Assembly: GCA_015698285.1 (NCBI GenBank)
Contig: CP048685.1
Location: forward strand, 248,001 to 312,000
DNA from: Candidatus Nitronauta litoralis
GTDB lineage: Bacteria; Nitrospinota; Nitrospinia; Nitrospinales; Nitrospinaceae
DNA: 64,000 nucleotides
Direction of reading: 5' to 3'
Shown: one piece after another, positions 5,159 through 55,137 of the stretch
Numbering within the stretch: position 1 is the first letter of the stretch
Layout of the letters: the number at the start of each line of letters is the position of its first letter
Program-made: the position numbers and the translations under genes
The notes under the pieces: generated by a model
Seen by the model: the letters and a program-made list of their open reading frames with translations, nothing else
Told to the model about the DNA's origin: nothing
The model's database searches: none

Positions 5159-5824
5159 GTGATATTAAAAGATATTTATCTTTTTCCAGACAGAGCTGAT
5201 TTCGACAATAAAAAAGTTTCTTATCCATTTAAACTACAAGCGAGAAGTTTGTGCGTTTATTTGGAACGACAATTAAAAACAATTAAATTTAAAACCAACG
5301 ATTTCAACCGCGTTTGTTTTGTAGGCTGCAAAACCCCTAACCCTAAAGGTTTTGTTAATTCCTGTAATGTATTGGGTATTGAGATAGATTTTGACGAAAA
5401 AAAATACAACTCCTTAAACGATGAGGAGCTAAACCCGTTTTTTATAGATATGCTAACTAAGGGAATTGAAAAATGTGAGAAACAATACGATTTTCCCGGT
5501 AGGGAATTAAAAGGTTGGATGGAAGATTTTCGAAAAGAAGGCTTTGTTAATAACTGGGTTTTCAAGACCCGTTTGTTCAGATCCATTGGCCTAAAATGTT
5601 CTTTAATTTGCGACCTCACTCTTTATGCATTTCAAATGAAATTAATTATAAAAAGAGGAAAAATTGTAATATTTGATCAAGAAATAAAAAAAACCGAACC
5701 GGATGATGTAATATTTAAATACCTTTTAAAAGATATTAAGTTGATCGAAAACTACATTGTCGTAATTGACAAGCTTGATAAGACTATCTTTGAAATTCCA
5801 GTTCAAGAGCTTGCTATTCATTAA
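5159..5824 (+). CDS. AT-rich orphan protein, function unknown
   Basis: A GTG at 5159 with AAGGAG at 5142-5147 starts a 221-residue frame. The gene is clearly richer in A and T than its neighbours, with many Lys, Asn, Ile and Phe codons ending in A or T, which suggests horizontal acquisition. It has no signal peptide or membrane segment, and no domain was recognised. It sits between two decayed copies of the 3' end of the CC-motif gene, so it may be an insertion at a duplicated site. I cannot assign a function; an accessory or immunity-type role is only a guess from composition and location. Confidence 0.6.
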   Translation: MILKDIYLFPDRADFDNKKVSYPFKLQARSLCVYLERQLKTIKFKTNDFNRVCFVGCKTPNPKGFVNSCNVLGIEIDFDEKKYNSLNDEELNPFFIDMLTKGIEKCEKQYDFPGRELKGWMEDFRKEGFVNNWVFKTRLFRSIGLKCSLICDLTLYAFQMKLIIKRGKIVIFDQEIKKTEPDDVIFKYLLKDIKLIENYIVVIDKLDKTIFEIPVQELAIH

Positions 5825-5888
5825 GCGCATTCAAGTAAATGGGTGAAGTGGATACCTTTAAATAGACTTTACCTCTTCATTCTACTTT

Positions 5889-5936
5889 AGCTCCCCTCAA
5901 AAAACTTGAGGCCTTGAGAGCCCACCTCATACTATA
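5889..5936 (+). pseudogene. Third, more decayed copy of the CC-motif gene 3' end
   Basis: The sequence CTCAAAAAACTTGAGGCCTT and the following bases up to ATACTATAA align with the tails of the gene at 3413-3712 and of the copy at 4976-5056. The coding frame is no longer intact. It is the most diverged of the three copies. Confidence 0.55.
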
Positions 5937-5985
5937 ATAGGGACAGTCTTTTTTCTGATTAATTCGTCCCAGTGAGGCGACCTAC

Positions 5986-7692
5986 ATGGTCACGCTGTTT
6001 ATCCTGACATTTTCGTGTCTGTTCTTCTATTTCCTCGGCTACCGGTATTACGCCGGGCGGTTGGACCGTGAAGTGATCCGGCCCGACAGCGCGCAATCCA
6101 CGCCGGCGGTGGACCAGAAAGACGGGGTCGATTACGTGCCCAGCAAACCGATGGTGCTGTTCGGTCACAACTTTGCCTCTATCGCAGGGGCCGGACCGGT
6201 CATCGGCCCGATCGTCGCCATGCAGCATTTCGGCTGGGCACTCACCATCGTCTGGATTCTCATCGGCAACGTGTTCATCGGTGCGGTGCACGATTACCTG
6301 ACGCTGATGGTCTCGGTGCGCAACCGCGGTGGATCAATCGCCGACATCGCCGAGACGACCATGGGCAGTCGCGCCAAAACGGTATTCGCCATTTTCCTGA
6401 TTCTGGCCATGCTGCTGGTGATCGCGGTATTCGGTGTGGTCGCCGCCAAGACCCTCATTGCGCAACCGGAGATGGTGTTCCCGACGTTCGCCATCATCCC
6501 GATCTCCATGCTCCTCGGCTGGGCCATCTATAAAAAAGGATTGCCGCTTGGACTGGTGACAAGCCTGGCGCTGATGGCGGTGATCGGCAATATTTACATC
6601 GGGTTTGAATTCCCTATGCCTTTGCCTTCAGAGGGGCTGCTTGGGTTGTCGCCCCTGATGTTCTGGTTTGTGGTGTTGATGCTGTATGCGGGCATCGCTT
6701 CGGTCATGCCAGTCGGCATGCTGTTGCAGCCACGCGACTACCTTTCCACCTACATCCTGTTTGGCAGCATGGCGCTTGGCCTGATGGCTCTGATCTGGGT
6801 GCACCCCGGACTCAACACGCCCGCCTATTTGGGAGCGGTTTCTGAAGGACAGGGTCCGGTCTGGCCAATGCTGTTCGTGCTGGTGGCGTGTGGGGCTGTA
6901 TCCGGTTTTCATTCGCTGGTAGCGGGCGGCACCGTATCCAAACAACTCGAGAATGAAAAACAAGGCCGGCTCATCAGTTACGGCGGCATGTTAACGGAAG
7001 GTGTCGTCGCTGTGGCAACGGTTCTGCTGGTGGGTGGAGGTTTGTACTGGGTCGCGCCTGCCGGTGGCGGCGTCGACATGGCGCAACTCGGGTTTCGTGA
7101 AACATTGAAAGCTGGCGGATGGATCCATGCGTTTGGTTCCGGTTTCGGCAACGTGGTCCAGCAGATGATCCCGGCTCTGGGTTTCACAGCGGCCTCGATG
7201 GTTGCCGTGCTCGCGCTCAACACTTTCGTGCTGACCACCCTCGATACTGCCGTGCGCATCACACGATTCATCGTGCAGGAGCTGGGCGCTTCCAAAATGC
7301 CGATGCTGCGCAACAAGTACAATGTCACCACCGGAGTGGTGGTCGTCGCCTTCGCCATTGGTGCCACCGGAGGCTGGCAGAAAATCTGGCCCATCTTTGG
7401 AGCCACCAACCAACTCATTGCAGCGGTCGCCCTGTTTGTAATCTCTGCTTATCTGGTCGGGGTGAAAAAACCGACCCATTTCACCCTGGTGCCGGCCCTG
7501 TTCATGGTGGTGACCACCATCGGGGCATTGTTATGGCAATCTTTCCGGTTCTTCACCGCCCCGGAACCCAACCTGTTCCTCGGAATTTCCGCCCTGGTGC
7601 TGACGGGACTTGCAATATTTGTGGGACTTGAAGGGTGGGAAGCGATCCGCGGCAAAAGACGATATGAAGGCACGGCAGTCAGTGAGGCATAA
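5986..7692 (+). CDS. cstA: Carbon starvation protein CstA family transporter
   Basis: This 568-residue polytopic membrane protein has about 15 hydrophobic segments. It shows CstA family hallmarks: Y-R-Y-Y-A-G-R-L near residue 20, then V-P-S-K-P-M-V-L-F-G-H-N-F-A-S-I-A-G-A-G-P near 55-75, and L-D-T-A-V-R-I-T-R near 420. Characterised relatives (E. coli CstA and BtsT) import peptides or pyruvate at the inner membrane. This is the shorter form; E. coli CstA is about 700 residues. The substrate cannot be decided from sequence. A GTGAGG element precedes the ATG. GC content returns to normal here after the AT-rich orphan. Confidence 0.9.
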   Translation: MVTLFILTFSCLFFYFLGYRYYAGRLDREVIRPDSAQSTPAVDQKDGVDYVPSKPMVLFGHNFASIAGAGPVIGPIVAMQHFGWALTIVWILIGNVFIGAVHDYLTLMVSVRNRGGSIADIAETTMGSRAKTVFAIFLILAMLLVIAVFGVVAAKTLIAQPEMVFPTFAIIPISMLLGWAIYKKGLPLGLVTSLALMAVIGNIYIGFEFPMPLPSEGLLGLSPLMFWFVVLMLYAGIASVMPVGMLLQPRDYLSTYILFGSMALGLMALIWVHPGLNTPAYLGAVSEGQGPVWPMLFVLVACGAVSGFHSLVAGGTVSKQLENEKQGRLISYGGMLTEGVVAVATVLLVGGGLYWVAPAGGGVDMAQLGFRETLKAGGWIHAFGSGFGNVVQQMIPALGFTAASMVAVLALNTFVLTTLDTAVRITRFIVQELGASKMPMLRNKYNVTTGVVVVAFAIGATGGWQKIWPIFGATNQLIAAVALFVISAYLVGVKKPTHFTLVPALFMVVTTIGALLWQSFRFFTAPEPNLFLGISALVLTGLAIFVGLEGWEAIRGKRRYEGTAVSEA

Positions 7693-7794
7693 TCCCTTTT
7701 CAAAATTCATCGCCAATTCAACATCCGCATTGATTTCAGGTGCAATTCTCTTTTATGATGGGCATAACTTCCATCCAGAACACGGGTCCGTTTA

Positions 7795-8457
7795 ATGAAA
7801 ATCAGCGAAATCCTGGCAGCGCGCGAAAAGAAAACAACCACCCCCACCAGCGGTAACACAGGCACCTCCACGCCACCCGCAGGTACGGGAAAGAAACCCA
7901 TCAAAGTTGTTCGCACACGGGAGACACCGAATCCCAACGCCAAACAGTATGTATTGAACACACAAGTTCTTTCCTATGGCAAACGTTCCTATTCAGGTAT
8001 TGATGAATGCGGTGACGACGCCATGGCCAAGTCCATTTTTGATTTCGATGGAATCAAAAACGTCTACATCATGAACAACTTTGTCACGGTCACCAAAGCG
8101 GATGCGGTCGGATGGAACCCGCTTGAGAAACAAGTGTGGAAGGTGATCGATGACAAGGTCACCATCTATCCGGCAGAAGAAACAGAAAAGATCGAAGTCG
8201 AGGTAAAAGATTTTTTGAACATGGCCCGCGAGAAGCAAATGCAGGCGGTGGAGATGGTATTGAACCGGTCGATCCGGCATTCACTCGCGCAGGATGGCGG
8301 GGGCGTCGAACTCAAGGATGTTGAGGGCACGGAGGTCAAGATTCACTATCAGGGAGCCTGCGGCGATTGCCCGTCATCTACAACCGGGACTCTGCAGCAC
8401 ATTGAACGCCTCATCAAACAGCAATTGCATCCGGACTTAGTTGTAAAACCTGTATAG
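7795..8457 (+). CDS. NifU/NfuA-type iron-sulfur scaffold protein
   Basis: The 220-residue protein has a low-complexity Thr/Pro/Gly linker (about 10-32), an Nfu N-terminal domain (about 38-125: R-E-T-P-N-P-N-A-K-Q-Y), and a C-terminal NifU domain holding the cluster-binding C-x2-C in G-A-C-G-D-C-P-S-S (Cys 189 and 192). Such proteins assemble or carry Fe-S clusters to apo-proteins in the cytoplasm. This domain order differs from E. coli NfuA, where the N-terminal part is a degenerate A-type domain. The gene lies 100 bases after cstA and converges on the AsmA-like gene. Confidence 0.88.
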   Translation: MKISEILAAREKKTTTPTSGNTGTSTPPAGTGKKPIKVVRTRETPNPNAKQYVLNTQVLSYGKRSYSGIDECGDDAMAKSIFDFDGIKNVYIMNNFVTVTKADAVGWNPLEKQVWKVIDDKVTIYPAEETEKIEVEVKDFLNMAREKQMQAVEMVLNRSIRHSLAQDGGGVELKDVEGTEVKIHYQGACGDCPSSTTGTLQHIERLIKQQLHPDLVVKPV

Positions 8458-8467
8458 CTTCTGCCCA

Positions 8468-10546
8468 CTACCTTGCCAGTTTACCCGGCAAGCGACCCAG
8501 CTCTCTCAAAATATCGCCACCTTTTCCCGCCAAGGTACCTTTTGCATCCAGAGTGACTCTTGGACGTTTCAGCGGCCCGGAAACTTTAAAACGGGTTTCA
8601 AGAACACCTCCCTTTTTCCCACCGGTGAGAATCTCGCCGAGAAGCGGTACTGCCTTGACGGCTTTATCAAGCGTCTGCGAAGGTTGAAACCGACCCTGCA
8701 TTTCAACATGGTTGATGATGCGATCCAGCCACCCCACCATATAGATTTTCATTTCCGGGGATAGCAAAGCCAGGTTGCGGGTAGTCGCTTTCCCTCTGGC
8801 GATCTTGAAGTCACCGCCAAGCGAATCATAACTCAAACCTTTCTGGTTGAGTTTTGTCACGGACAAAGGATTGAGCGCGGTGAGTAAAGCCCGGAGCGGC
8901 TCGAGCTGGTGGAACCTTCCCGAGGTTGCCGCAAAGGTAATATCACCGGAAACAGCGTTCAACGGCGAGCCCCTTTCCGGTATTCTGCCCGAGACAACAC
9001 CTTTAGTTGCAAGATCGCCGTCTACATTCTGCTGGTAAAAATCCTCGACCCGCAATCCCTCTCCTTGATAGCTCAATTGATAAGTTCGGTCAGAAACCTG
9101 GTACTGCCCTTTGGATTTGATAGTGCCATTGGGAGGTGCTATTTCCAGGGAAGGAATGGTTAGTGTTTCATTCTTGAAATTCCAGCCACCCTTGATACGT
9201 GTCATTGGAATTTTCAGGTGAGTATCGCGTTTGAAACCGACAACCCATCTCTCTCCTTCTACCACTCCGTCCAACTGAAATGCTTCCGGCTGGTCCAAGG
9301 GTCCGCGAATATTGACACGATGCGACATGGCTCCCTGTTCGATTTCCCAGTCACGTGGCAGCCATTCATTCAACAGGTCTGCACGAGCCCTCGGGATTCG
9401 GATTACTGTTTGCAGGTGGGGAGCCTTCGAAAAATCCAGATTTCCTTTCGCAGTGAAAGCCAGGTCCCGGACTTCACCCTCGAGCTCATGAACAAGTTTT
9501 CTATTGTTCCAGTTCACGGTTCCTTTGAGAAAGGTAAAACCCTGCCTTAATTCTGGACGATCTGCCGGAGGCTGCAACACCAAGTTTTTCACATCAAACG
9601 TCAACCCTGCATTCACTTTTTCCCCTTTCAGGGAGGACTCATCGAACAGGTTAATCCCCTCAGCATTGGCTTTCAGACTCCAGGTCTTGATCTCTCCTGA
9701 TGGATCAAACTGGTTCCAGACTTCTTTAACATGGGGCGGCAGGAAATCGACAAATTCCGAAAGCGTCTCCAGTTCGAGAGGTTTGCCTTTTAAGTTGGCC
9801 TTAAAATGGCCTTGCGGACTCAATGCATTATGGGCAGCAATTTCACCTGTAATTTTAAAACCTTCTGAAGAAAAATCCAGTTCGCGAACATCCAGATCCA
9901 GCCTTTTCTCATCGGGCCGGTTAACCTTAAGAACCAGTGAAGCGTGGAACTGCAGGGGTTCCGCATTAGAATCACTAGTTGGGAACCATAATATTTTTGC
10001 ATTTTTAACCCGGACCGTCTCGGCATTCAGATGCAGCCCCATCAGCAGGCGCTTCATGGGGCCAAGGCCAACGTGGCGGGGGGTGAGCGCGCTGACTTGG
10101 TTTAACCTGGATGAAGAATCTTCCGGTTTAACAGAGGAAACTTGTGGTTGGATGAGAAACACTGGCTTTTGAATGACCGCCTCTTCCACTTCGACCTGCT
10201 TGTCCAGCAGTGGAGCCCACTTTACCCGCAGGAACAGGGCTTCAGAGGAAAACAGGGTGCGCTTTCCCTTTTGTGAATAGACAGAAACCTCGCCCGCGCG
10301 CAAACCCATTCCACCAGACCAGTCAAGATCCAGGGACCCAATATTCACATCAAGTCCGGAAGCGTCTGAAAGGGCTTTAGTGATGGGCTCCCGCAGTGTG
10401 TTTACGTCTACTGTCTGGATGAGGACAAAAATCAATACAACCAGAACCACGAAAAAAATAAAAATGACTTTAACAAACCGCTTGAAAAAACCAGGGGAGT
10501 TGTCGGGTTCAGGGGTATCGGTCGGGGCAGGAAGGTCAAGTTTCAT
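8468..10546 (-). CDS. AsmA-family envelope protein
   Basis: This 692-residue protein has one N-terminal membrane helix (about residues 25-47: F-V-K-V-I-F-I-F-F-V-V-L-V-V-L) and a long beta-rich periplasmic region. It contains V-N-T-L-R-E-P-I-T-K-A-L-S-D-A-S-G near the start and an AsmA C-terminal-like stretch (about 540-660). AsmA-like proteins span the envelope and are implicated in phospholipid transport to the outer membrane. The ATG at 10546 is preferred over a TTG three codons earlier. The gene converges on the NifU-type gene with ten bases between stops. Confidence 0.8.
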   Translation of the reverse strand: MKLDLPAPTDTPEPDNSPGFFKRFVKVIFIFFVVLVVLIFVLIQTVDVNTLREPITKALSDASGLDVNIGSLDLDWSGGMGLRAGEVSVYSQKGKRTLFSSEALFLRVKWAPLLDKQVEVEEAVIQKPVFLIQPQVSSVKPEDSSSRLNQVSALTPRHVGLGPMKRLLMGLHLNAETVRVKNAKILWFPTSDSNAEPLQFHASLVLKVNRPDEKRLDLDVRELDFSSEGFKITGEIAAHNALSPQGHFKANLKGKPLELETLSEFVDFLPPHVKEVWNQFDPSGEIKTWSLKANAEGINLFDESSLKGEKVNAGLTFDVKNLVLQPPADRPELRQGFTFLKGTVNWNNRKLVHELEGEVRDLAFTAKGNLDFSKAPHLQTVIRIPRARADLLNEWLPRDWEIEQGAMSHRVNIRGPLDQPEAFQLDGVVEGERWVVGFKRDTHLKIPMTRIKGGWNFKNETLTIPSLEIAPPNGTIKSKGQYQVSDRTYQLSYQGEGLRVEDFYQQNVDGDLATKGVVSGRIPERGSPLNAVSGDITFAATSGRFHQLEPLRALLTALNPLSVTKLNQKGLSYDSLGGDFKIARGKATTRNLALLSPEMKIYMVGWLDRIINHVEMQGRFQPSQTLDKAVKAVPLLGEILTGGKKGGVLETRFKVSGPLKRPRVTLDAKGTLAGKGGDILRELGRLPGKLAR

Positions 10547-10617
10547 ACTCTTCAATTATACAATTAAAACAATACGTTATGTATACCCCTTTTTTTATGC
10601 TCAAAAACCCATTAAAC

Positions 10618-10652
10618 AAAAAAAAACGGCCGCGGAAAAATCCGCGACCGTT
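10618..10652 (-). terminator. Rho-independent terminator after the PuuD-like gene
   Basis: A stem AACGGCCGCGGA / TCCGCGACCGTT (10625-10652, one mismatch, AAAA loop) is followed on the minus strand by nine T residues (A-tract at 10618-10626). It lies about 58 bases past the stop of the PuuD-like gene. Confidence 0.9.
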
Positions 10653-10709
10653 AAAACAGGAAATAATTCCTGGAAAATACCTGTCAGCCTAAATTTTTTG
10701 AGTCAAACC

Positions 10710-11159
10710 CTAGAAATTAAAGCCACCATGGCCGGACGCGACCATACAAGCCAACATGGGAAGGGAGAGCCAGGCATTGGTCCGGCTGGCCAGGAATGCG
10801 GTCCGCTTGGCTTTTGCCAGTGCGTCACCTTCCAGTTCTCCCGCGATGATCTTTTTCTGGTTGGGCCAGATAATGAACCATACGTTGAACCACATGATAA
10901 CTCCCAAAAACATACCGATGTGGATTATTCCTTTTACTCCGCCACCCATGATGTAGTAGATGATGCCGAAGACCAAGGTTCCCATGGCAGCCCATCGGAA
11001 AAGAAAGAGAGCCTTGGGTACAATGATTTGTGTGTAAGGCTTCGCGGCTCCCGCTTCGGTCATCTGAGGCATGGATTGTACCTGCACCAGATTAAAGAAA
11101 TACAGAAGGCCGATCCACAGGATGCCAAAAAGTACGTGAAAAAATTCAATGAGCCACAT
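10710..11159 (-). CDS. PuuD-like integral membrane protein, cytochrome domain absent
   Basis: This is a 149-residue, four-helix membrane protein that resembles the N-terminal membrane domain of urate hydroxylase PuuD: F-H-V-L-F-G-I-L-W-I-G-L-L-Y-F near the start, I-M-W-F-N-V-W-F-I-I-W-P near 85, and A-S-R-T-N-A-W-L-S-L-P-M near 130. Full-length PuuD also carries a C-terminal cytochrome c domain, which is absent here. Urate oxidation is therefore doubtful. The ATG at 11159 is chosen because GGAGG lies just upstream; a longer frame to 11270 adds residues unlike the family. Confidence 0.75.
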   Translation of the reverse strand: MWLIEFFHVLFGILWIGLLYFFNLVQVQSMPQMTEAGAAKPYTQIIVPKALFLFRWAAMGTLVFGIIYYIMGGGVKGIIHIGMFLGVIMWFNVWFIIWPNQKKIIAGELEGDALAKAKRTAFLASRTNAWLSLPMLACMVASGHGGFNF

Positions 11160-11318
11160 GAGGACCCTCCCCTTTCGTTCAAAAAAATCAGAAATTGTTT
11201 GGTTTATCCGGCAGGGAGCCGGTTGCTGAACCTTGCGATTTAGATGGGCAATTGAGGTGCAAGGATTCAATTTTTCGAAGAATTAATTGCCGGAAAATGA
11301 TTTCGGTGAAGAAGGTGC

Positions 11319-11666
11319 TCATCCCAGGAACCAACGTACCGCTAAAAGTACTGATGCAATCAATAATATAGCCATTCCGCCCAGAATCCAGTTATTCGCG
11401 AGTCCCGTACCACAGGTTTGTTCTTTTGAGGCTTCCTCTATTTTAGTTTGAGGTGAGTGTATTGCCTGTTCCGCCAGTTTTCGGGCCATTTCCGAGTTTT
11501 CACGGTCAAGAGCCTCAACTTTCTCCTCCAGTCTGGATATTCGATCGCGGAGTTGCAGCCTTTCCACTTTAAGAGATTTGGATTTAGCGATCTCACGCTC
11601 CAGCCGCTCTTCCGGTCCCATAGTGATTCCGCCGGGTTCATAGTCCCCGTCCATCTCATTTGACAT
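11319..11666 (-). CDS. Tail-anchored coiled-coil protein, function unknown
   Basis: This 115-residue protein has a charged heptad-rich central part (about residues 20-68: E-R-L-E-R-E-I-A and D-R-I-S-R-L-E-E-K-V) and one C-terminal hydrophobic helix (about 92-113: I-L-G-G-M-A-I-L-L-I-A-S-V-L-L), giving a tail-anchored topology. No family was recognised. It lies 27 bases downstream of an aldo/keto reductase gene and may be cotranscribed with it. Confidence 0.6.
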   Translation of the reverse strand: MSNEMDGDYEPGGITMGPEERLEREIAKSKSLKVERLQLRDRISRLEEKVEALDRENSEMARKLAEQAIHSPQTKIEEASKEQTCGTGLANNWILGGMAILLIASVLLAVRWFLG

Positions 11667-11693
11667 CGTTATAGCCTCTGCTGAATGCGGAGG

Positions 11694-12635
11694 TCATCCA
11701 GTCTCCTTCTGAAACTGATCACTGACAGCATTCAGGCGTTCCAGTTGTTCTACACTCAAAGTCAGATCTCCGGCGGGGCAAACTTCTTCAATCTGTTGCC
11801 ATTTTCGAGATCCAACGACGGCCGTGGTCAAATTGCTCTGGGCGATGACCCAGGCTACCGCTACATTAATGGGAGAAGTGTTCAACTCCAGTGCGATTTC
11901 GGCCAGCAGGTCTATTGCGGGCTTCGTCCTGGAGAAATAAGGCTCCTGATATAGAAAATATTGCTGTCGAGTCGGAGGTCGACGGGCTTCAGCATCGACA
12001 CGACCGCCAAACAGGCCGCGCGCTGTGGGGGAGTAGGCCATGTAACCCACTCCCGCCTTTTGGCATATTTCTATCGTTTCCCCTTCGTATTCCCTTTGCA
12101 ACAGGTTGTACGGCACCTGGTTGACTGTAAATTCTGATAGCCCATTGCCGAGGCGTTTCAAATCCTCAGCCCTGAAATTGGACAGGCCGATGGCACGAGT
12201 TTTCCCTGAATCGCGTAGCGCTACCATCAGCTCCACCATTTTTTGCGCATTGGCCGGATTGCTGAAATCATCACTCGGCCAATGCATCAGGTAAACATCC
12301 ACGTAGTCCCGATCCAGAGCTTTCAGGGTATTGTCCAGTCGCTCCGTGTAAGCAGGCAAGGTAAAAGGCGCATCCGGCCACATTTTGGAAATGATAAGGA
12401 CTTCATCCTTATTAGTTCCCAAAGCCTTCGCCAGACGGCGTTCGGATTCTCCATCGCCGTAACCTTCAGCCGTATCGAAAGCCCGGATCCCTCCATCGTA
12501 AGCTGCCTTGACAACCCGGTCCGCTTCTTCAGCGGTACACAGATCTCCCCAACCACCGCTTGGAGCAATCTGCCAACATCCAAACGTTATCCGGGTCCAG
12601 GGCTTACCCAGCCCTTCAACACTCAATGATCGCAT
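11694..12635 (-). CDS. Aldo/keto reductase
   Basis: The 313-residue protein has the AKR tetrad: Asp and Tyr in F-D-T-A-E-G-Y-G (near 54-61), Lys in I-I-S-K-M-W-P (near 84), and His in Y-L-M-H-W-P (near 117). The family reduces aldehydes or ketones with NADPH in a TIM-barrel fold in the cytoplasm. Substrate specificity cannot be read from the sequence. Its ATG is one base from the stop of the upstream membrane protein gene, so translation is probably coupled. A second AKR lies at 54184-55137. Confidence 0.88.
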   Translation of the reverse strand: MRSLSVEGLGKPWTRITFGCWQIAPSGGWGDLCTAEEADRVVKAAYDGGIRAFDTAEGYGDGESERRLAKALGTNKDEVLIISKMWPDAPFTLPAYTERLDNTLKALDRDYVDVYLMHWPSDDFSNPANAQKMVELMVALRDSGKTRAIGLSNFRAEDLKRLGNGLSEFTVNQVPYNLLQREYEGETIEICQKAGVGYMAYSPTARGLFGGRVDAEARRPPTRQQYFLYQEPYFSRTKPAIDLLAEIALELNTSPINVAVAWVIAQSNLTTAVVGSRKWQQIEEVCPAGDLTLSVEQLERLNAVSDQFQKETG

Positions 12636-12636
12636 T

Positions 12637-12951
12637 TCACCTCACAATCCAGGTCACCCGTCGAAAAGTATACGGGCGGCGTTTGATTTCCTCAAATTCC
12701 GGTTGTGTCATCCATTCGTCCTGTACGGCTTTCACTTCACGTTTAACCTGCCAAACCTTCCAGGCTCCGTAAAGGACTGCACCGCCTGCAAACAGGATAA
12801 AGGCCGCAACCAGGAACCCGATCAATTGCGGAAATACAAAAATAAGAACACCCAATGCGAGCAAGGAAAGTCCCATCAACAGAGACGCAGTGAACAGGGT
12901 CCCGAAAGCATCGGATACAAAGTTTTTATTGTTACGATTAACATGGATCAT
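12637..12951 (-). CDS. Two-helix membrane protein, function unknown
   Basis: The frame encodes about 104 residues with two adjacent hydrophobic helices (about 18-40 and 44-66) and a charged C-terminal tail. I chose the ATG at 12951 because GGAGGTGA lies six bases upstream; an ATG five codons earlier lacks this. Its stop is one base from the start of the downstream aldo/keto reductase. No domain was recognised. Confidence 0.6.
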   Translation of the reverse strand: MIHVNRNNKNFVSDAFGTLFTASLLMGLSLLALGVLIFVFPQLIGFLVAAFILFAGGAVLYGAWKVWQVKREVKAVQDEWMTQPEFEEIKRRPYTFRRVTWIVR

Positions 12952-13020
12952 GATTCTCACCTCCATTCATGATAAACCACTATCCTTTCATTAATCCTAT
13001 AAGATGCGACCAGACACCGG

Positions 13021-13809
13021 TCAAGCTGACACCTTTAAAGCCTTTAAAATCAACCGAAAATCTTTTTTTTGTTGTTGGAGAGGCCGACGCCAGTTGGCCA
13101 CCCGGGGACTGGGGTGATAAAGAGGAAGCAGTTGAAATTTTTCCAGTGTAACCAGCCGGGCAGCATGGTCATTGAGTTTATAGCGTGTCCCCAGCAGACG
13201 GTTGATCGCTTCCAGCCCCACTCCCCCAAGCGTCACAACCAGCTTTGGCTGAATCAGGTCCAAGGTCGACTTTAAAAATCCCGAACAGTTTTTAATCTCT
13301 TTTGCCGTGGGCCGGCTGTTCACGCCCTCTGAGATGGGATTGCACAATACAGCGTTGGTGATGAAGATATCTTCACGAGTGAGACCAACATGGTCGATTA
13401 GTTCCTGAAAGTTTTCGCCTGACTTGTCACCATAGAAGGGAATTCCGGTGCGACCACTGCCGAACCTGCCCGGTGCTTCGGCAATGAACACCACACTGGA
13501 ATGCAATGATCCGTTATTTTTTCCAAGCACCGCACATTCACTGGCCATTCGTGGGCAAAGGGTACAATCTGCGGCTTCCTGAAACAGGGCTTTTGATTTT
13601 TTCAGTCTATTTTTCTTAGAAGAGTGCTTGCTTTGGTCAGGAATGGGGGGGGTGTCGGTTTCTTTTTTTGCGATGGTACCGGCGGGACTTTCTTGTTCCT
13701 CCTCTTCATCGTCATAGTATTCATCTTCCTCCTCTGCGCTGGTCCGGCAAATAACGAGGAAGCCAACCAGCATCAAGGCGCTGGCTATGATGGTGAAGAT
13801 AATATCCAT
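13021..13809 (-). CDS. Uracil-DNA glycosylase (Fe-S, family 4/5 type) with an N-terminal membrane anchor
   Basis: This 262-residue protein starts with a hydrophobic helix (residues 3-21), then an acidic stretch (about 26-40, mostly Glu and Asp) and a basic linker (62-73) before the glycosylase domain. That domain has E-A-P-G (111-114), G-I-P-F-Y-G (122-127), T-N-A-V-L-C-N-P (151-158) and H-P-S-P-R (232-236). Four Cys (82, 85, 156, 175) fit the 4Fe-4S cluster of family 4/5 enzymes, which remove uracil from DNA. A membrane anchor and acidic tail are unusual for this family. It is the last gene of a minus-strand run starting at the squalene synthase gene. Confidence 0.85.
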   Translation of the reverse strand: MDIIFTIIASALMLVGFLVICRTSAEEEDEYYDDEEEEQESPAGTIAKKETDTPPIPDQSKHSSKKNRLKKSKALFQEAADCTLCPRMASECAVLGKNNGSLHSSVVFIAEAPGRFGSGRTGIPFYGDKSGENFQELIDHVGLTREDIFITNAVLCNPISEGVNSRPTAKEIKNCSGFLKSTLDLIQPKLVVTLGGVGLEAINRLLGTRYKLNDHAARLVTLEKFQLLPLYHPSPRVANWRRPLQQQKKDFRLILKALKVSA

Positions 13810-13826
13810 AAGGCATTAAGTATAAA

Positions 13827-14234
13827 TTAAATGGGTTTGACAGTCGCGTAGTAAATCATCCACGCTCCAATGATGAAAATAGCGATATGCACCATCATCG
13901 CATACTTTTTCGGCATGAGATCTTTTTTAATCTGCACCCCGTTCAAGATACCGAGCCCAATCAATATGACCAGCAAACCCAATTTAGGATAAATCCAGTG
14001 CCCGTTTTTAAATACCTCCGTTTTTACGGCAAGAAAGGTACCAGAAAAAATGGTGACTAACAGGATGGGATAATAAATAAACTTATGAATGCGCACCTGA
14101 GTTGCGCGCAGCCCCGCACGCTCTTCGGGGGTTTTTAAACGCAACCGAAAAACCACAGTTAGAGACTGCAGGAATAATGTGCCAATAACCAGACACATGG
14201 AAACCATGTGCAGCGAAAGAAAAAAGTTTTTCAC
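13827..14234 (-). CDS. Four-helix membrane protein, CopD/DUF2269-like
   Basis: The 135-residue protein has four hydrophobic helices (about 5-26, 52-70, 84-102 and 113-131) and a His in the first (S-L-H-M) and third loop region (V-R-I-H-K-F). The pattern resembles CopD-like or DUF2269 integral membrane proteins, but the match is weak. It starts with GTG at 14234, six bases after GGAG. It lies between another membrane gene (21-base gap) and the uracil-DNA glycosylase (17-base gap), so the three are probably cotranscribed. Function is unknown. Confidence 0.55.
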   Translation of the reverse strand: MKNFFLSLHMVSMCLVIGTLFLQSLTVVFRLRLKTPEERAGLRATQVRIHKFIYYPILLVTIFSGTFLAVKTEVFKNGHWIYPKLGLLVILIGLGILNGVQIKKDLMPKKYAMMVHIAIFIIGAWMIYYATVKPI

Positions 14235-25957: not shown

Positions 25958-25993
25958 AAAAAAGCCCCTCCTGACAAATCAGAAGGGGCTTTT
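25958..25993 (-). terminator. Rho-independent terminator (first of tandem pair, possibly bidirectional)
   Basis: The stem AAGCCCCTCCTGA / TCAGAAGGGGCTT (about 25962-25991, one mismatch, loop CAAA) has a T-tract on the minus strand (A-tract 25958-25963) and a shorter T-tract on the plus strand. No coding gene ends nearby on either strand, so it probably closes the candidate RNA at 25994-26240. Confidence 0.85.
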
Positions 25994-26531: not shown

Positions 26532-27260
26532 ATGACCCAACACAATATCACTTCGTTTGATTTACCCGAGGGGAAATCCATCGCTGGAAAATACCGTGTG
26601 GTGTCCATGCTCGGTTCCGGTTATGAAGGGGAAGTTTATAAAGTTAAAGAAATTCATACGGGGATTGAAAGGGCCGCCAAGCTGTTTTTCCCCCAAAGGA
26701 ACTTCAAGGGCAAAACATCCCAAAGATATGCACAGAAACTACACAAGCTAAATCAATGCTCTCTGTTGATTCAATACCATACCCAGGAAGAAATCATTTT
26801 AAAAAAAACCAAAGTAATTGCGTTGATATCAGAGTATATTGAGGGTGTTCTTTTGTCAGATTTTTTAAAAAATTCCCGAAATAAAAAGCTGGACCCCTTC
26901 AAAGCTCTCCACCTGTTATATTCGTTAACAAAAGGGATAGAAGAAATTCACTTAAGGAACGAGTATCATGGGGATCTCCACACAGATAACATTATCGTAA
27001 ATAAATTCGGACTCCATTTTGAACTGAAGCTTCTGGATTTGTACCACCATGGAAATTCCCGCTCTGAATTTCTTAAGGATGATCTATTAGGTTTAATAAA
27101 AATTTTCCATGAAATTCTGGGCGGAAAAGCAGCATACCGTGATCACCCTCAGGAAATTAAAAATATCTGCTCCGGACTGAAAAGAAATTTGATTTTAAAA
27201 AAATTCAAAACGACCTCTAAACTTAGGGAACATCTTGAAATAATGGAATGGCCATTGTAA
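26532..27260 (+). CDS. Protein kinase-like protein
   Basis: The 242-residue protein has a compact kinase fold with all key residues: Gly-rich loop G-S-G-Y-E-G-E-V (28-35), A-A-K-L-F with Lys50, catalytic H-G-D-L-H-T-D-N (146-153; Asp148, Asn153) and the metal Asp169 in L-L-D-L, where the usual D-F-G has become D-L-Y. No membrane helix or sensor domain follows, unlike typical bacterial Ser/Thr kinases. The start has no strong ribosome-binding site. Only 37 bases separate it from the ATP-grasp fusion gene, so it probably heads the four-gene operon. Substrate unknown. Confidence 0.78.
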   Translation: MTQHNITSFDLPEGKSIAGKYRVVSMLGSGYEGEVYKVKEIHTGIERAAKLFFPQRNFKGKTSQRYAQKLHKLNQCSLLIQYHTQEEIILKKTKVIALISEYIEGVLLSDFLKNSRNKKLDPFKALHLLYSLTKGIEEIHLRNEYHGDLHTDNIIVNKFGLHFELKLLDLYHHGNSRSEFLKDDLLGLIKIFHEILGGKAAYRDHPQEIKNICSGLKRNLILKKFKTTSKLREHLEIMEWPL

Positions 27261-27297
27261 TTTTTAAAAAAGTCGTTCGCATTGGGGGAATATACAT

Positions 27298-29490
27298 ATG
27301 AAAGTAGCGGTCATCTACAATAAGCAGCAGGATTTTGAAGGTGTTCTCAATGTTTTTGGTATGCAAAACCAGGAAAAATACAATCCCAAAACCGTTGAAA
27401 AGGTCGCGTCGGCACTGGAAAAAGGAGGCCACAACGTCCGGGTGATTGATGGCAACATAAATGTCATTGAACAACTGCAAGGGTTCATGCCCCGGGTCGT
27501 CCAGGGGGAGCAACCGGGAATGGTATTCAATATGGCTTACGGCCTTCAGGGTGTCAGCCGGTACACTCATATCCCTTCACTACTTGAAATGATTGGTGTC
27601 CCGTATGTCGGGTCCAGTCCGGCTGGTCATGGTGTGGCTTTGGACAAAGTCACGACCAAAGTAATGGTCCATGCAGCGGGGCTTCCCACTGCACCTTACT
27701 GGGTCTTTTTTAATGAAGACCAGGTCCCTGATGACATCCCCTTCCCCGTAATCACGAAACCAAAAATGGAAGCGGTCTCCATGGGAATCCAGGTCATCCA
27801 TGACCTGCCCTCACTGAAAACCGCAGTTGTGGATCTGGTCGAGCAATTCAAGCAGCCAATTTTAGTTGAAAAGTTTATTCCTGGAAGGGAATTTGCCGTC
27901 GGGTTATTGGGCAATCAGGATCCCGAAATATTTCCCATTCTGGAAATTGATCTGGAAGGGAATCCTGATGCGATTCAGAGCATTGATGACAAGCTTAAGA
28001 AACCCAAAGGGAAAATTTGTCCGGCCAACGTGGACGAAAAAACCGCCGAAGAAATTCGTCGCCTCACCAGAGATACATTCCGGGTATTGGGCATTTACGA
28101 CTTTTGCCGGGTGGATTTCCGGATGGACGCAGAGGGCAATCTTTATATCCTGGAATTGAATTCGATGGCCAGCCTCGGTGGAACAGGTTCCTATGTGCAT
28201 GCAGCGCAAGTTGCTGGCTACACCTATGAAACCATGGTCAATCGCATGCTCGATGTGGCGGTCGAACGTTATTTTGGCACCCAGCAAAGGGACCAGTTGT
28301 CGGTTGAAGAGCCTGAATCGAAAACCCAAAAAGACCCACTTCGAATTCGCCTGAGAAGTCATTTAAGAGGGAATCTCCGGACAATGGAAGATGACCTCGA
28401 AAAAATGGTGGACATCAACTCTTATGTTCAAAATATTGAAGGAGTGAATTCCCTTGGAAGATGGGTATCCAACAAGCTGGGAACCCTCGGATTCCAGCGC
28501 CATGTCTATTCACGGGCAGAGTATGGAAATATTTTATATCTGACCAATCACATGGAAGAAACAAACGACATCCTATTAATTTGCAATCTGGACAACCCGG
28601 TTGATTACGAAGACTTCAATGCATTCTATGAGGAAAAAGGACGGCTCCATGGAACAGGCGTGGCGCGTGGAAAAGGCGGGCTTGCTGTCATGCTTGGAGC
28701 TCTTAAAGCATTGCGATACACGCGCTCGCTGAAAAGGGTCAGATGCGGCATCCTGCTGATTACAGACGAATCTTTAGGAGAACGGTCCTCGAAGCCCGTA
28801 ATTGAAGAAGTGTCTGGAAAATCCAATTTCGTTGTTGGGTTAAATGGGGCGGGCTTGAGTGGAGAAATCATGACCTCTTGTTCCGGTACTATGAGATTCG
28901 AGATTGAAATCAATCGGGTACAAAACAAGCAGGGATTAAAAGCTTCTTCTGAAGTCAGCGATCCTATTTTATTTGTCTCACAAAAATTGACCGCATTAAG
29001 AAAATTAAACTCAGAGGAAGAAGGTATCTTCATCACAATCACCGGACTACAAACCAAAGGAATGGAAGACCAGCCTGCGTACCACGCAGCGTTATCCTTT
29101 TTGGCGCGTTACCGGACAGTTGACCAACGGAAAAAGCTGGAAGAGCGAATCCGGGGTATTTTCGAGACCAAGTCACAGAGCAATATTAAAGTGTATGTGA
29201 CCAAAGGCCCTCAACGAAAACCGTTTGTGGAAACGGAAAGGTCGCTGGCATTTTTTGAAAAAGTGGAAAAGATCGCTAAAACTCTCGAGGTCCGCGTCAA
29301 AAAAGCAGAAAACGCAATGGTTTCCTGCATGGAAAACTCTGCTCACGGTGTACCGGCCCTTGATGGGTTTGGCCCGGTAACCGGAGGGTATGGTTCAAAT
29401 AATGAGTATGTTGTCCGGGACAGCCTGATCGACCGAGCCGTTTTACTTGCATATCTGATTTATCGATCCTCTAAAAATTTCGGCTCATGA
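27298..29490 (+). CDS. Ddl-like ATP-grasp ligase fused to a metal-site-less M20 peptidase domain
   Basis: The 730-residue protein has two parts. Residues 1-330 are a D-Ala-D-Ala ligase-like ATP-grasp domain: H-G-V-A-L-D-K (111-117), I-T-K-P-K (152-156), V-E-K-F-I-P-G-R-E-F (190-199) and metal ligands in R-V-D-F (Asp273) and L-E-L-N (Glu286, Asn288). Residues 365-728 resemble M20 peptidases, but the metal ligands are lost: H-x-D is N-L-D (430-432), the bridging Asp of the G-x-G-x-x-D-x-K-G-G motif is Arg457, D-E-E is D-E-S (490-492), and the C-terminal His is missing near 699. It is therefore probably an ATP-dependent ligase with a binding domain. GGGGGAA lies eight bases before the start. Confidence 0.82.
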   Translation: MKVAVIYNKQQDFEGVLNVFGMQNQEKYNPKTVEKVASALEKGGHNVRVIDGNINVIEQLQGFMPRVVQGEQPGMVFNMAYGLQGVSRYTHIPSLLEMIGVPYVGSSPAGHGVALDKVTTKVMVHAAGLPTAPYWVFFNEDQVPDDIPFPVITKPKMEAVSMGIQVIHDLPSLKTAVVDLVEQFKQPILVEKFIPGREFAVGLLGNQDPEIFPILEIDLEGNPDAIQSIDDKLKKPKGKICPANVDEKTAEEIRRLTRDTFRVLGIYDFCRVDFRMDAEGNLYILELNSMASLGGTGSYVHAAQVAGYTYETMVNRMLDVAVERYFGTQQRDQLSVEEPESKTQKDPLRIRLRSHLRGNLRTMEDDLEKMVDINSYVQNIEGVNSLGRWVSNKLGTLGFQRHVYSRAEYGNILYLTNHMEETNDILLICNLDNPVDYEDFNAFYEEKGRLHGTGVARGKGGLAVMLGALKALRYTRSLKRVRCGILLITDESLGERSSKPVIEEVSGKSNFVVGLNGAGLSGEIMTSCSGTMRFEIEINRVQNKQGLKASSEVSDPILFVSQKLTALRKLNSEEEGIFITITGLQTKGMEDQPAYHAALSFLARYRTVDQRKKLEERIRGIFETKSQSNIKVYVTKGPQRKPFVETERSLAFFEKVEKIAKTLEVRVKKAENAMVSCMENSAHGVPALDGFGPVTGGYGSNNEYVVRDSLIDRAVLLAYLIYRSSKNFGS

Positions 29491-31118
29491 AACTTGAAAA
29501 AATTGAAAACAGCTTTTCACCCTCTGAAGATGGAAAGTGTGCCGCTTCCTCAGAAGGTATGGTGTCCACTGCTTTTCCCAATGCCACAGAGGCGGGAGTG
29601 GAAATGCTCAAACAAGGCGGGAATGCTATTGATGCCGCCTGCGCATCTGCTTTTGCTTTAGGAGTTTGTGAACCCCAGGCCAGTGGGATTGGCGGTCAGT
29701 CCATGGCCATTCTCCATTTCCGGGGAAAGACCATAGCGCTCGATGGATCCAGTCGCGTTCCCTCTCTTGCTCATTTGGACCGCATTGATAAAAAAAAACA
29801 GCGGTTTCGAGGATACAAAGCCACCACCATTCCGAGTACACCGGCCGTTCTGGGCTATTTACATTTCCACTATGGCAAACTTGAATGGTCAAAAATCCTG
29901 GAACCGGCGATACGCATTGCCCGTGAAGGATATGCAATCACCCAGCTTCAACATGACTTGCAAAAAAGGGAAACAGAAAACTTCCTGAAAGAAGATTCAT
30001 TATCAGGAGCAAAATATTTTCTAAAAAATGGGACCACCCCCTATCCAGTTGGTGACAATTTCAAACAGGACGATTTGAAACAAATGCTGGAGCACATGGC
30101 CCAGCATGGCGTCAAGTCATTTTACACGGGAGAAATCGCGAAACAGATTGACGAAGACATGCGGTACCACGAGGGTTTTTTGCGTGGAGACGATCTGGCT
30201 CTGATTCCCTGGCCAGTTGAGCGAAAGCCCATCAGCAGAAGTTACCGCAAGGTTAAAGTCTTCACGACACCGCCACCGGGTGCAGGCAGAACTCTTCTTC
30301 TGGTTCTACAAATACTGAAAAACCTACCATCAAAAATTCTAAAAAGTGGAAGTGCACAGGCTTGCCATTTTATTGCCGAGGCATTTAGAAAAGGTTTGCT
30401 GAATCATAAAGAGCGTCCCTTTGACCCAAACATCTATCCGCAATTGCCTGATGACAGGAAAATCCTAAGCCGGGATTTTGCAAGAAATCTTTCTTCTTCC
30501 ATTCGAGATGGGATTGACCCCTCTCTGCCTCTAACCGAATTGTTCTCCCTGTCAAATGACACAACCCATCTTTCAGTCATGGACAAGGAAGGAAACGCCA
30601 TCGGCATTACACAGTCGATTGAGTTGGTGTACGGGGCAAAAGTGGCGGCACGGGGGCTGGGCTTTCTCTATAACAATTACATGAGCTCGCTGGATATTAC
30701 TGACCCTTCCCATCCTTACTATTTGAGACCCAATGCGATTCCCTGGAGCTCGGTCGCACCCATCATCGCTTTCTATAAAGATAAACCCTGGCTGGTTGCA
30801 GGAAGTCCCGGCAGTGAGCGTATTTTTTCTGCCATGAGCCAGTTTCTATCGCATATTGTGGACTCAGGGCTTCCCATAAGTGAGGCTATGCTGAAGCCAC
30901 GTTTTCATTGCACGGTTGGCGGAAAGCTGAGCATCGAAGAGGAGCGGTTTGATCCAGAGATTATTAAATATTTAAAACAGGCAGGTTATAAAATTGATTC
31001 CAGAGAAGCTTACTCATTCTATCTGGGAGCGGTTCACGCTGTTCTTAAATGCAATACCAAAGATGAGTTCCAAGGAGTTGCTGAAATCAGGCGTGACGGA
31101 ACGGCAGCCGGTCCTTAA
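29487..31118 (+). CDS. Gamma-glutamyltransferase family protein (cytoplasmic type)
   Basis: The 543-residue Ntn-hydrolase has the GGT nucleophile in N-D-T-T-H-L-S-V (Thr359 expected), G-I-G-G near 67 and a G-S-P-G-S-E-R segment where GGTs usually have G-S-P-G-G-S. Classical GGTs transfer or hydrolyse gamma-glutamyl groups outside the cytoplasmic membrane; this one has no signal peptide (starts M-K-L-E-K-I-E-N), so it is predicted cytoplasmic. It should self-cleave before Thr359. Its ATG overlaps the ATP-grasp gene stop (ATGA), and the amidohydrolase gene begins three bases after it. Confidence 0.85.
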   Translation: MKLEKIENSFSPSEDGKCAASSEGMVSTAFPNATEAGVEMLKQGGNAIDAACASAFALGVCEPQASGIGGQSMAILHFRGKTIALDGSSRVPSLAHLDRIDKKKQRFRGYKATTIPSTPAVLGYLHFHYGKLEWSKILEPAIRIAREGYAITQLQHDLQKRETENFLKEDSLSGAKYFLKNGTTPYPVGDNFKQDDLKQMLEHMAQHGVKSFYTGEIAKQIDEDMRYHEGFLRGDDLALIPWPVERKPISRSYRKVKVFTTPPPGAGRTLLLVLQILKNLPSKILKSGSAQACHFIAEAFRKGLLNHKERPFDPNIYPQLPDDRKILSRDFARNLSSSIRDGIDPSLPLTELFSLSNDTTHLSVMDKEGNAIGITQSIELVYGAKVAARGLGFLYNNYMSSLDITDPSHPYYLRPNAIPWSSVAPIIAFYKDKPWLVAGSPGSERIFSAMSQFLSHIVDSGLPISEAMLKPRFHCTVGGKLSIEEERFDPEIIKYLKQAGYKIDSREAYSFYLGAVHAVLKCNTKDEFQGVAEIRRDGTAAGP

Positions 31119-31121
31119 ACT

Positions 31122-31883
31122 ATGAAACTACCCCTGTTGATATCTATTCCCCATGGCGGGACAAAAATCCCTGAAGAGGTATCCCGTCAGGTACACCTTT
31201 CACCAAAAGACTTATTTGAGGATAGCGACTCATTTACCCGCGAAATTTACGGAATTAAAGAGGATGTTTTGACCCTGGTGGAAACAGACATTGCCAGAGC
31301 TTTTATTGATTTGAGTCGCGATATTACTGACCGTCCCCCTGAAAATCCCGACGGCATTGTAAAAACAAAAACCTGCCATGGCCATTCCATTTATTCCTCT
31401 GCCGCTTTTCCCGACGAAGCCACATTAAAAATTCTGGTTCAAAAATATTACGACCCCTACCACAAAATGATCGAGGACACTTTTAAGGGTGCAACTGAAA
31501 TTCAACTGGCTTTGGATTGTCACACGATGGAGCCCATAGGCCCTGCCATTTCTCCTGATACAGGAAAAGAAAGGCCCTCCATCTGCCTTGGAAATAATTT
31601 TGGAAAAAGCTGCCCCGATAAATGGGTGCAAAATCTGTCCAAATGTTTTCAAAAAAGTTTCAACCTGGATGAAGGGGAGATAACGATAAACGAACCTTTC
31701 GCAGGCGGATACATCACCAGAAAATACGGGAACAACCCCCTTCCCTGGGTTCAAATTGAAATGAACCGCAAAATGTATCTATCCTCCCCATGGTTTGATA
31801 AAAACAACCGGTCGGTGGCTCCAGACCGCCTGAAAGATTTAAGAGAATCATTCAGGGAAGGGTTGGAGCTATTCTTTTCCTGA
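31122..31883 (+). CDS. N-formylglutamate amidohydrolase family protein
   Basis: The 253-residue protein has the family signature: S-I-P-H-G-G (8-13), D-L-S-R-D (63-67), L-D-C-H-T-M (131-136), F-A-G-G-Y-I (193-198) and Q-I-E-M-N-R (211-216). Characterised members hydrolyse N-formyl-L-glutamate in histidine degradation, but no hut gene is nearby. In this operon it may act on an N-acylated or gamma-linked glutamate product; that is inference. A hairpin at 31887-31954 follows the stop. Confidence 0.85.
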   Translation: MKLPLLISIPHGGTKIPEEVSRQVHLSPKDLFEDSDSFTREIYGIKEDVLTLVETDIARAFIDLSRDITDRPPENPDGIVKTKTCHGHSIYSSAAFPDEATLKILVQKYYDPYHKMIEDTFKGATEIQLALDCHTMEPIGPAISPDTGKERPSICLGNNFGKSCPDKWVQNLSKCFQKSFNLDEGEITINEPFAGGYITRKYGNNPLPWVQIEMNRKMYLSSPWFDKNNRSVAPDRLKDLRESFREGLELFFS

Positions 31884-31886
31884 ACC

Positions 31887-31956
31887 AACCTGAAGCTATA
31901 ATCACTGGGGAGACTGAAAAACGAACAATGGTTTCTTTTCAGCAGCTTCAGGTTTT
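31887..31956 (+). terminator. Candidate terminator of the kinase/ATP-grasp operon
   Basis: A perfect 10-bp stem AACCTGAAGC / GCTTCAGGTT (31887-31896 and 31945-31954) with an inner 7-bp stem CTGAAAA / TTTTCAG (31914-31920 and 31936-31942) ends in TTTT. The loop is longer than in a classical terminator. It starts four bases after the amidohydrolase stop. Confidence 0.55.
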
Positions 31957-54183: not shown

Positions 54184-55137
54184 ATGGAATACCGCAAACT
54201 CGGTTCAAGTGATTTAAAGGTATCGGTCATCGGCTATGGGGCCTGGGGCATTGGCGGTGCCCCCTTCTGGAGCACCGAAGGTGATCATGCGTCCCTGTCT
54301 TCGATTAAAAAAGCCTTCGATCTAGGAGTTAATTTTTTTGATACCGCTCCGGTTTACGGTTTTGGTCATTCAGAACGGTTGATCGGACAGGCCCTGAAAC
54401 CGGTGCGAGACAAGGTCATCATCGCAACCAAATGCGGGCTTCTCTGGGATAAAGAACAACTTGGCTCCATTAAGAAAGTAGCGAAAGCTGACTCGATTTT
54501 TAAAGAAATCGACCAGAGTCTGGAACGCCTTGGCACTGACTATATCGACCTCTACCAGGTGCACTGGCCGGATGTCGACACTCCACAGGAAGAAACGATG
54601 CAGGCCTTATTAAAAATTCAGGAACAGGGTAAAATCCGGCATATCGGAGTCAGCAATTACAGTGTCCAACAGATGGAAGAGTGCCTGAAGGTAGGCCCCA
54701 TTGTTTCACTCCAGCCTGAGTACAGTCTTCTTCAACGAAAAATTGAAAACGAAACGGTGCCGTTTTGCCTGGAAAACGATATTGGGATCATTGCTTACAG
54801 CCCACTGGCTTCCGGTGTGTTGACAGGAAAATACGACAAATCCACTCGATTCAAAGACTGGCGCGGTAAAGGCATCCTGGGTGAATTCACAGGAGAAGCG
54901 TTTGTGCGCAACATACAAAAAGTTGATCGGTTAAAAGAAATTGCCGGGGACCTGGGAAAAACCTGTGGGCAAACCGCGATCAACTGGGTGTTGCAACAGC
55001 CCGGGTTGGCTACGGCTTTGGTTGGCGTGAAGAACCCCAGGCAAATGGAAGATAATATCGAAGCAGTTGGCTGGACGGCCCCGGAAAATACTTCAAGCGA
55101 AATCGATCAACTGTTTACTCAAACGACAAACAGTTAG
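54184..55137 (+). CDS. Aldo/keto reductase
   Basis: The 317-residue protein has the tetrad Asp and Tyr in F-D-T-A-P-V-Y-G (near 52-59), Lys in A-T-K-C-G near 82 and His in Q-V-H-W-P near 122. It is a second paralogue of AKR in this window. It has no obvious operon partner: a 186-base gap precedes it and a convergent gene follows. Substrate unknown. Confidence 0.88.
   Translation: MEYRKLGSSDLKVSVIGYGAWGIGGAPFWSTEGDHASLSSIKKAFDLGVNFFDTAPVYGFGHSERLIGQALKPVRDKVIIATKCGLLWDKEQLGSIKKVAKADSIFKEIDQSLERLGTDYIDLYQVHWPDVDTPQEETMQALLKIQEQGKIRHIGVSNYSVQQMEECLKVGPIVSLQPEYSLLQRKIENETVPFCLENDIGIIAYSPLASGVLTGKYDKSTRFKDWRGKGILGEFTGEAFVRNIQKVDRLKEIAGDLGKTCGQTAINWVLQQPGLATALVGVKNPRQMEDNIEAVGWTAPENTSSEIDQLFTQTTNS

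Follow-up and report, generated by a model that had tools for sequence, protein, structure and literature searches.

ATP-grasp ligases that act together with hydrolases or peptidases are known from several systems. The NAGGN dipeptide osmolyte operon comprises a GNAT–ATP-grasp fusion ligase, an asparagine-synthetase-like partner, and an M42 peptidase. RimK–RimB consists of a poly-glutamate ligase opposed by a retropepsin, and the rlo operon, which encodes the ATP-grasp protein RloC, the 7TM inactive transglutaminase RloB, and the secreted retropepsin RloA, controls hypo-osmotic tolerance in Pseudomonas aeruginosa (PMC12239564). The present analysis concerns a cassette of three adjacent genes found in Candidatus Nitronauta litoralis, the genome of which is a single 3.92 Mb contig. 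The DNA stretch analysed (CP048685.1, positions 248,001–312,000; 64,000 nt) is hereafter called the window, and coordinates refer to it unless stated otherwise. All genes of the cassette lie on the plus strand: a gene for a ligase/M20 fusion protein (27298–29490; 730 aa), a gene for a predicted cytoplasmic Ntn-hydrolase of the gamma-glutamyltranspeptidase (GGT) fold (29487–31118; 543 aa; G_glu_transpept, PF01019; E-value, 2e-110), and a gene for a putative metal-dependent deacylase or amidohydrolase of the FGase family (31122–31883; 253 aa; FGase, PF05013; E-value, 5.9e-47). They are preceded by a gene for a kinase-fold protein (26532–27260; plus strand; 242 aa).

The cassette resembles the rlo operon in that an ATP-grasp ligase and peptide-bond-cleaving activity are encoded together, the osmotic phenotype being that of rlo. 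The likeness extends to the closest plasmid matches for the ligase and GGT, which are near-neighbor genes in Bradyrhizobium barranii: on its symbiont plasmid (locus L032, positions 6282–11047 of the locus), the genes for a KamA aminomutase, a GGT, a PF14402 protein, and an ATP-grasp ligase stand in one row, and PF14402 is a 7TM domain that in most cases occurs as a fusion with an inactive transglutaminase, as in the RloB architecture. This rhizobial operon is apparently unstudied in the literature searched. However, the ATP-grasp subfamily differs from that of rlo, the cassette hydrolases are a cytoplasmic GGT-fold enzyme and an FGase rather than a secreted retropepsin, and no transglutaminase gene is found beside the operon in the window. 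Neither PF05618 retropepsin nor PF14402 is encoded in the window operon, while both occur beside some of its relatives. RimK–RimB shares with the cassette the principle of an ATP-grasp ligase opposed by a hydrolase, but RimK belongs to a different ATP-grasp subfamily (PF08443), and the cassette comes with no evidence of a ribosomal-protein substrate. The NAGGN operon is similar as an idea, namely a small amide osmolyte made and turned over by an ATP-grasp ligase and a peptidase, whereas its fusion ligase, its asparagine-synthetase-like partner, and its M42 peptidase are all absent from the cassette operon. No paper describing this gene set was found in the literature searched, which agrees with the statement of an earlier, sequence-only reading of the locus that no named pathway has this set; the 2009 amidoligase survey by Iyer and colleagues, which was outside the search, may mention parts of it. 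The genome paper on N. gracilis makes no mention of compatible solutes, or of terms with osmo- or glutamyl.

Conservation and distribution of the cassette

A scan for the ligase over 84,980 species yielded 80 loci, and 51 complete, nearly gapless three-gene cassettes were found in at least eight phyla. The three genes are found together in Nitrospinota, Nitrosomonas marina, N. aestuarii, Nitrosopumilus and its relatives, ANME-2, Gemmatimonadota, Dehalococcoidia, Binatia (Binatota), and Chitinivibrionales. In both Bacteria and Archaea, the order ligase–GGT–FGase is colinear at almost all loci for which the sequence is long enough, and is thus not peculiar to the genome from which it was first read; its recurrence in at least eight phyla is far beyond chance. 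The ligase and GGT genes are separated by no more than 30 bp in 44 cassettes and share an identical four-base overlap in 29, and the gap between GGT and FGase does not exceed 50 bp in 48. The protein identity matrices are also correlated (r = 0.90 for ligase and GGT; 0.74 and 0.78 for the other pairs). It is near certain that the ligase/M20 fusion, GGT, and FGase genes exist as a conserved unit, which has previously been unnamed.

Among the 77 genomes of the phylum Nitrospinota, the full-length fusion is encoded in about 20, all from one order, and is followed by GGT and FGase wherever the sequence allows. In the tree, the sequences of Nitrosomonas fall within Nitrospinota several times, those of the cultured N. 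marina and N. aestuarii among them, and only seven of the 61 Nitrosomonas genomes carry the fusion, these two species being the named carriers. Transfer between the lineages is thus shown, and the cassette is horizontally mobile between unrelated marine bacteria and archaea, most of which are nitrifiers. Two further matches, labelled Woeseiaceae and Planctomycetota, are extremely close to Nitrospinota sequences and are thus probably mis-binned contigs. Some loci hold additional copies. One Nitrosopumilaceae locus (L131, positions 5824–13844 of the locus) has three GGT genes of the cassette type, in both orientations, around one ligase gene, while in a Nitrospinota locus (L043, 10947–11148) fragments matching ligase residues 1–72, probably a decayed second copy, lie near an intact cassette.

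Genomic neighborhood and possible role

The recurrent neighbors of the cassette at other loci encode CorA, MgtE, CNNM/CorC, a voltage-gated-type ion channel, Kef/NhaP-type antiporters, and MscS-like channels; the CorA, MgtE, CNNM, Ion_trans, Na_H_Exchanger, and MscS helix families were confirmed by Pfam. In three Nitrosopumilus loci (L109, L122, L130), a corA gene is inserted between the ligase and GGT genes, in two of them together with a K+ channel gene. CorA is encoded 3' of FGase in two Gemmatimonadota, whereas FGase is followed by MscS–MgtE_N–MgtE–CNNM in Binatota and by MgtE_N–MgtE in two Nitrospinota loci (L062, L066). Our preferred reading, held tentatively and with slightly less than even confidence, is that the three genes make and turn over a cytoplasmic amide-linked small molecule or short peptide for ionic/osmotic, especially Mg2+/K+, homeostasis. 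The role of the cassette in ionic/osmotic homeostasis is moderately supported, and its usual company of genes for magnesium, potassium, and pressure-sensitive channels hints at a novel means of salt handling. In favor of the reading, the density of ion-transport genes was 11.3 per 100 kb of cassette flank versus 0.75 in 40 control regions from seven of the cassette genomes, and the association of ligase and GGT with a PF14402 7TM protein in Bradyrhizobium, together with the osmotic function of rlo, points the same way.

Several observations weigh against this reading. The enrichment of ion-transport genes (about 15-fold) is inflated because the HMMs used were seeded from the recurring neighbors themselves. 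Many of the loci come from close relatives and do not count as independent, and several also hold RimK or CP-ATP-grasp/alpha-E amidoligase systems, with which the channels may in fact be partnered. The main weakness is that the gene list of the window has no ion-transport gene near the cassette; the cassettes of N. marina and N. aestuarii likewise have no ion-transport neighbors. Even so, despite the inflated figure, the occurrence of Mg2+ transporter genes from three unrelated families beside cassettes of several phyla is hard to explain otherwise, and the genomes of ammonia-oxidizing archaea have only one to three CorA genes each.

The company of the cassette in Nitrospinota bears on a second explanation, protein or peptide tagging, in which an amino acid or peptide would be attached to a protein of the cell by the ligase and taken off again by the two hydrolases, in the manner of RimK and RimB on RpsF. 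Several Nitrospinota cassettes adjoin genes for RimK, a RimB-type PF05618 protein, and aspartoacylase, or sets encoding CP-ATP-grasp, alpha-E, Anbu, and transglutaminase proteins, and both kinds of set are known or predicted to tag with peptides (RimK/RimB: PMC12239564). Most cassettes, however, have neither RimK nor CP-ATP-grasp neighbors, and no common gene for a protein substrate travels with the cassette across phyla. The cassette ligase is moreover Ddl-like, and the characterized members of that fold join free amino acids, which leaves tagging a rather unlikely function.

The KamA gene of the rhizobial row points to another possibility, that an aminomutase supplies a beta-amino acid to be coupled by the ligase into a peptide. 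In both Bradyrhizobium and Mesorhizobium, a gene for a KamA-family aminomutase belongs to the gene row of the ligase or lies a short way upstream of it. A full-length KamA with Arg at the position of Asp293 of LAM is also encoded in the window genome, and copies that are 52–61% identical are encoded in ANME-2 and one Gemmatimonadota. In other Nitrospinota families, KamA lies within about 1–2 kb of another Ddl-like ligase; in a sister family of the phylum (L025–L030 and the same contigs of G071–G076), the distance to a Ddl-like ligase is within about 1 kb, and in one genome (G073, contig C94), a second Ddl-like ligase gene is found on the other side. On the other hand, nearly all of the cassette-negative Nitrospinota of the order also have KamA, while marine Nitrosomonas, ammonia-oxidizing archaea, and Binatota have only relatives of about 32–37% identity. 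This near-universality in the order, together with the lack of close copies in several cassette lineages, weakens KamA as an obligatory partner. A beta-amino-acid peptide pathway is accordingly distinctly unlikely, and KamA as the source of a substrate is a lead only.

GGT-fold hydrolase and FGase-family enzyme

The GGT-fold protein shares with the T3 family of gamma-glutamyltranspeptidases the Ntn-hydrolase fold, the catalytic Thr, and an adjacent Thr. The nucleophile, T359, which corresponds to T391, is kept in all of the 62 family sequences, and inspection of the sequence revealed no signal peptide; the Ntn-hydrolase Thr and the cytoplasmic location had both been recognized in the sequence-only reading. 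Unlike the T3 enzymes, the cassette protein is thus predicted to be cytoplasmic, and it has a conserved acyl pocket of its own. At the positions of R114, N411, Q430, and D433 of Escherichia coli GGT, the window protein has S88, E379, Y398, and S401, respectively. The same changes run through the family (R114 to S in 60, N411 to E in 60, Q430 to Y in 61, and G484 to S in 61 of the 62 sequences), with D433 replaced mostly by S or A. This signature is largely common to the Bradyrhizobium relative and is absent from five other plasmid GGT-family proteins. It is also absent from a second GGT that one Nitrospinota genome encodes directly upstream of its cassette (L065, 8193–9779) and that is canonical at R114 and N411. 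The score of the window protein against the GGT equivalog model TIGR00066 (352.6 bits) falls just under the cut-off of 357.85 bits. We infer that the acyl group handled by the enzyme is without the alpha-amino and alpha-carboxylate pattern of glutamyl, and the conserved acidic residue of the pocket could bind an amine.

The FGase-family enzyme is a member of PF05013, as is the N-formylglutamate deformylase HutG, and many of its residues are at least 95% conserved among 47 sequences. Its score against the HutG model TIGR02017 (102.4 bits) is nevertheless far below the cut-off (278.75 bits), and no gene for histidine degradation is found in the operon.

These features bear on the proposal of the sequence-only reading that the locus makes and trims a glutamyl-containing small molecule or peptide tag, which would amount to a gamma-glutamyl metabolite pathway such as a glutathione-like cycle or a gamma-glutamyl peptide. 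That the operon is cytoplasmic and combines a ligase that forms amides with two enzymes that cleave them was upheld by the analysis, but the glutamyl chemistry was not. In favor of the latter are the PF01019 and PF05013 family names, the invariant nucleophile, and the frequent action of the T3 family on gamma-glutamyl groups; in addition, R90, which lies two positions beyond that of R114, may partly compensate for the loss, and therefore the altered pocket is not proof against gamma-glutamyl. The replacement of all four pocket positions in nearly all members, however, contrasts with the GGT of S. meliloti (L217), which keeps R, N, and D, and together with the low HutG score leaves a glutamyl-containing product unsupported and improbable.

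Ligase/M20 fusion protein

By Pfam, the fusion protein consists of two halves. The first (residues 1–330; 27298–28287, plus strand) is a D-Ala–D-Ala-ligase-like ATP-grasp amide ligase (Dala_Dala_lig_C, PF07478; E-value, 1.5e-30), and the second (28318–29487, plus strand) is similar to carboxypeptidase G2 (Peptidase_M20, PF01546; E-value, 1.6e-12). In an AlphaFold2 model of the whole protein (mean pLDDT, 83; pTM, 0.54), the first half matches DdlB (TM 0.85 on target), and the second half (residues about 350–725) matches carboxypeptidase G2 (TM 0.72 on target); since the pTM is low, the arrangement of the halves relative to each other is not established by the model.

Residues K117, K154, R271, D273, E286, and N288 of the ligase half show no or almost no variation across 70 sequences, with the metal residues D273, E286, and N288 being invariant, and thus the half should be an active ATP-grasp enzyme. 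It shares the fold and the ATP/Mg2+ residues with D-alanine–D-alanine ligase (Ddl). Unlike Ddl, it is fused to an M20 domain, occurs in archaea that lack peptidoglycan, and does not reach the cut-off of TIGR01205 (132.1 versus 245.65 bits). Since V160 and L233 of the fusion stand where Ddl has S150 and Y216 (alignment to P. aeruginosa DdlA), the protein is not a D-Ala–D-Ala ligase. A role in cell-wall maintenance, in which a Ddl paralogue and amidases would recycle peptidoglycan stem peptides, is suggested by the Ddl-like and carboxypeptidase G2-like halves and by the effect of the rlo relative on cell shape, but it is rejected as highly improbable because the cassette is abundant in ammonia-oxidizing archaea and ANME-2, which lack peptidoglycan, a distribution that largely refutes it, and the S150/Y216 substitutions also stand against it.

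The M20 half shares its fold with carboxypeptidase G2 and the M20 peptidases, but the two-metal set H112, D141, E176, E200, and H385 is replaced by N, R, S, N, and S/G in the window protein. Across the family, the displayed members have neither E176 nor H385, and E200 is lost as well; D141 is changed to R in Nitrospinota, the other copies having mostly E or D, while H112 is kept mainly in the archaeal, Binatota, Gemmatimonadota, and Chloroflexota copies. With its metal ligands gone, this half is a dead-enzyme domain rather than a peptidase in both domains of life; the sequence-only reading, which described a pseudo-M20 fusion with ATP-grasp metal residues, had already called it dead. The rhizobial ligase relative has no M20 domain, and therefore the M20 half is not needed for ligation as such.

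Proposed mechanism

For the homeostasis function preferred here, we infer the directions of the reactions, the substrates, and the physiological role as follows. The ATP-grasp half would phosphorylate a carboxylate and join it to an amine, with the dead M20 half, as a relative of carboxypeptidase G2, holding the substrate or making a dimer. The GGT-fold Ntn-hydrolase would transfer or remove an acyl group other than gamma-glutamyl, and the FGase-family metalloenzyme would remove an N-acyl group or the last residue, so that the pool could be cut quickly when ionic conditions change. It is conceivable, although we place it well under even, that the product belongs to an undescribed class of amide or peptide metabolites, built by a Ddl-like ligase whose substrate domain is a dead peptidase, broken down by an FGase and a GGT put to new use, serving in Mg2+/K+/osmotic balance, and spread among marine nitrifying bacteria, ammonia-oxidizing archaea, and ANME.

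The nitrogen cycle of the ocean is driven by marine nitrifiers, whose handling of salt and magnesium is poorly known. An operon that nitrite oxidizers, bacterial and archaeal ammonia oxidizers, and ANME-2 have in common, and that repeatedly neighbors Mg2+/K+ transporter genes, points to an undescribed and probably measurable metabolite. A vague question about salt thereby becomes testable by comparing N. marina, which is cassette-positive and culturable, with cassette-negative Nitrosomonas. The locus is also a clear case of misleading public annotation, its products being named D-Ala ligase, M20 peptidase, GGT, and N-formylglutamate amidohydrolase.

Kinase gene and other features of the locus

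The kinase-fold protein contains a Pkinase domain (PF00069; E-value, 1.2e-13; 51.6 bits) and keeps the catalytic residues K50, D148, N153, and D169. It has the motifs HGDLHTDN and DLY in place of HRD and DFG, and therefore it may be either a protein kinase or a small-molecule kinase. The gene is present in 16 of the 77 phylum genomes, and stands beside the cassette in only three, all Nitrospinota (the window genome, G000, as well as G010 and G023), and within 4 kb of it in one more (G037). The cassette occurs in 13 of the 16 kinase-positive versus 10 of the 61 kinase-negative genomes (Fisher p = 2e-6; 2.6e-5 within the order; kinship ignored in both). On its distribution, the kinase is rejected as a core member of the cassette; it is an optional Nitrospinota accessory outside the conserved unit, and may act in some Nitrospinota as a regulator or a small-molecule kinase. 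The intact kinase core described in the sequence-only reading was thus retained, while its membership in the pathway was not, and phospho-regulation is graded as speculation. The possibility of an anti-phage defence system was discarded, as PADLOC gave no match for the three cassette genes, and none beyond the kinase domain.

The layout of the four genes was confirmed to the base: the kinase gene is separated by 37 bases from the fusion gene, the fusion and GGT genes share an ATGA overlap, and three bases separate GGT from FGase. The hairpin at the end of the operon (31887–31954, plus strand), a possible transcript end, was likewise confirmed, with a minimum free energy of −22.7 kcal/mol (z = −3.1). 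Its loop is long and its U-tract weak, and the terminator scan did not detect it. Promoter and terminator scans of the locus were at chance level, and no structured RNA was found in or upstream of the operon at gathering thresholds, the upstream matches being weak and at chance level. Between the minus-strand genes and the kinase gene lies an inverted repeat of 15 bp (25960–25993) that has a loop of 4 nt, ends in TTTT, and is terminator-like. Elsewhere in the window, ARAGORN reported a 92-nt tRNA-Ala (ggc) at 54214–54305, within a 317-aa ORF (54184–55137), so that either the call is likely false or the ORF is spurious.

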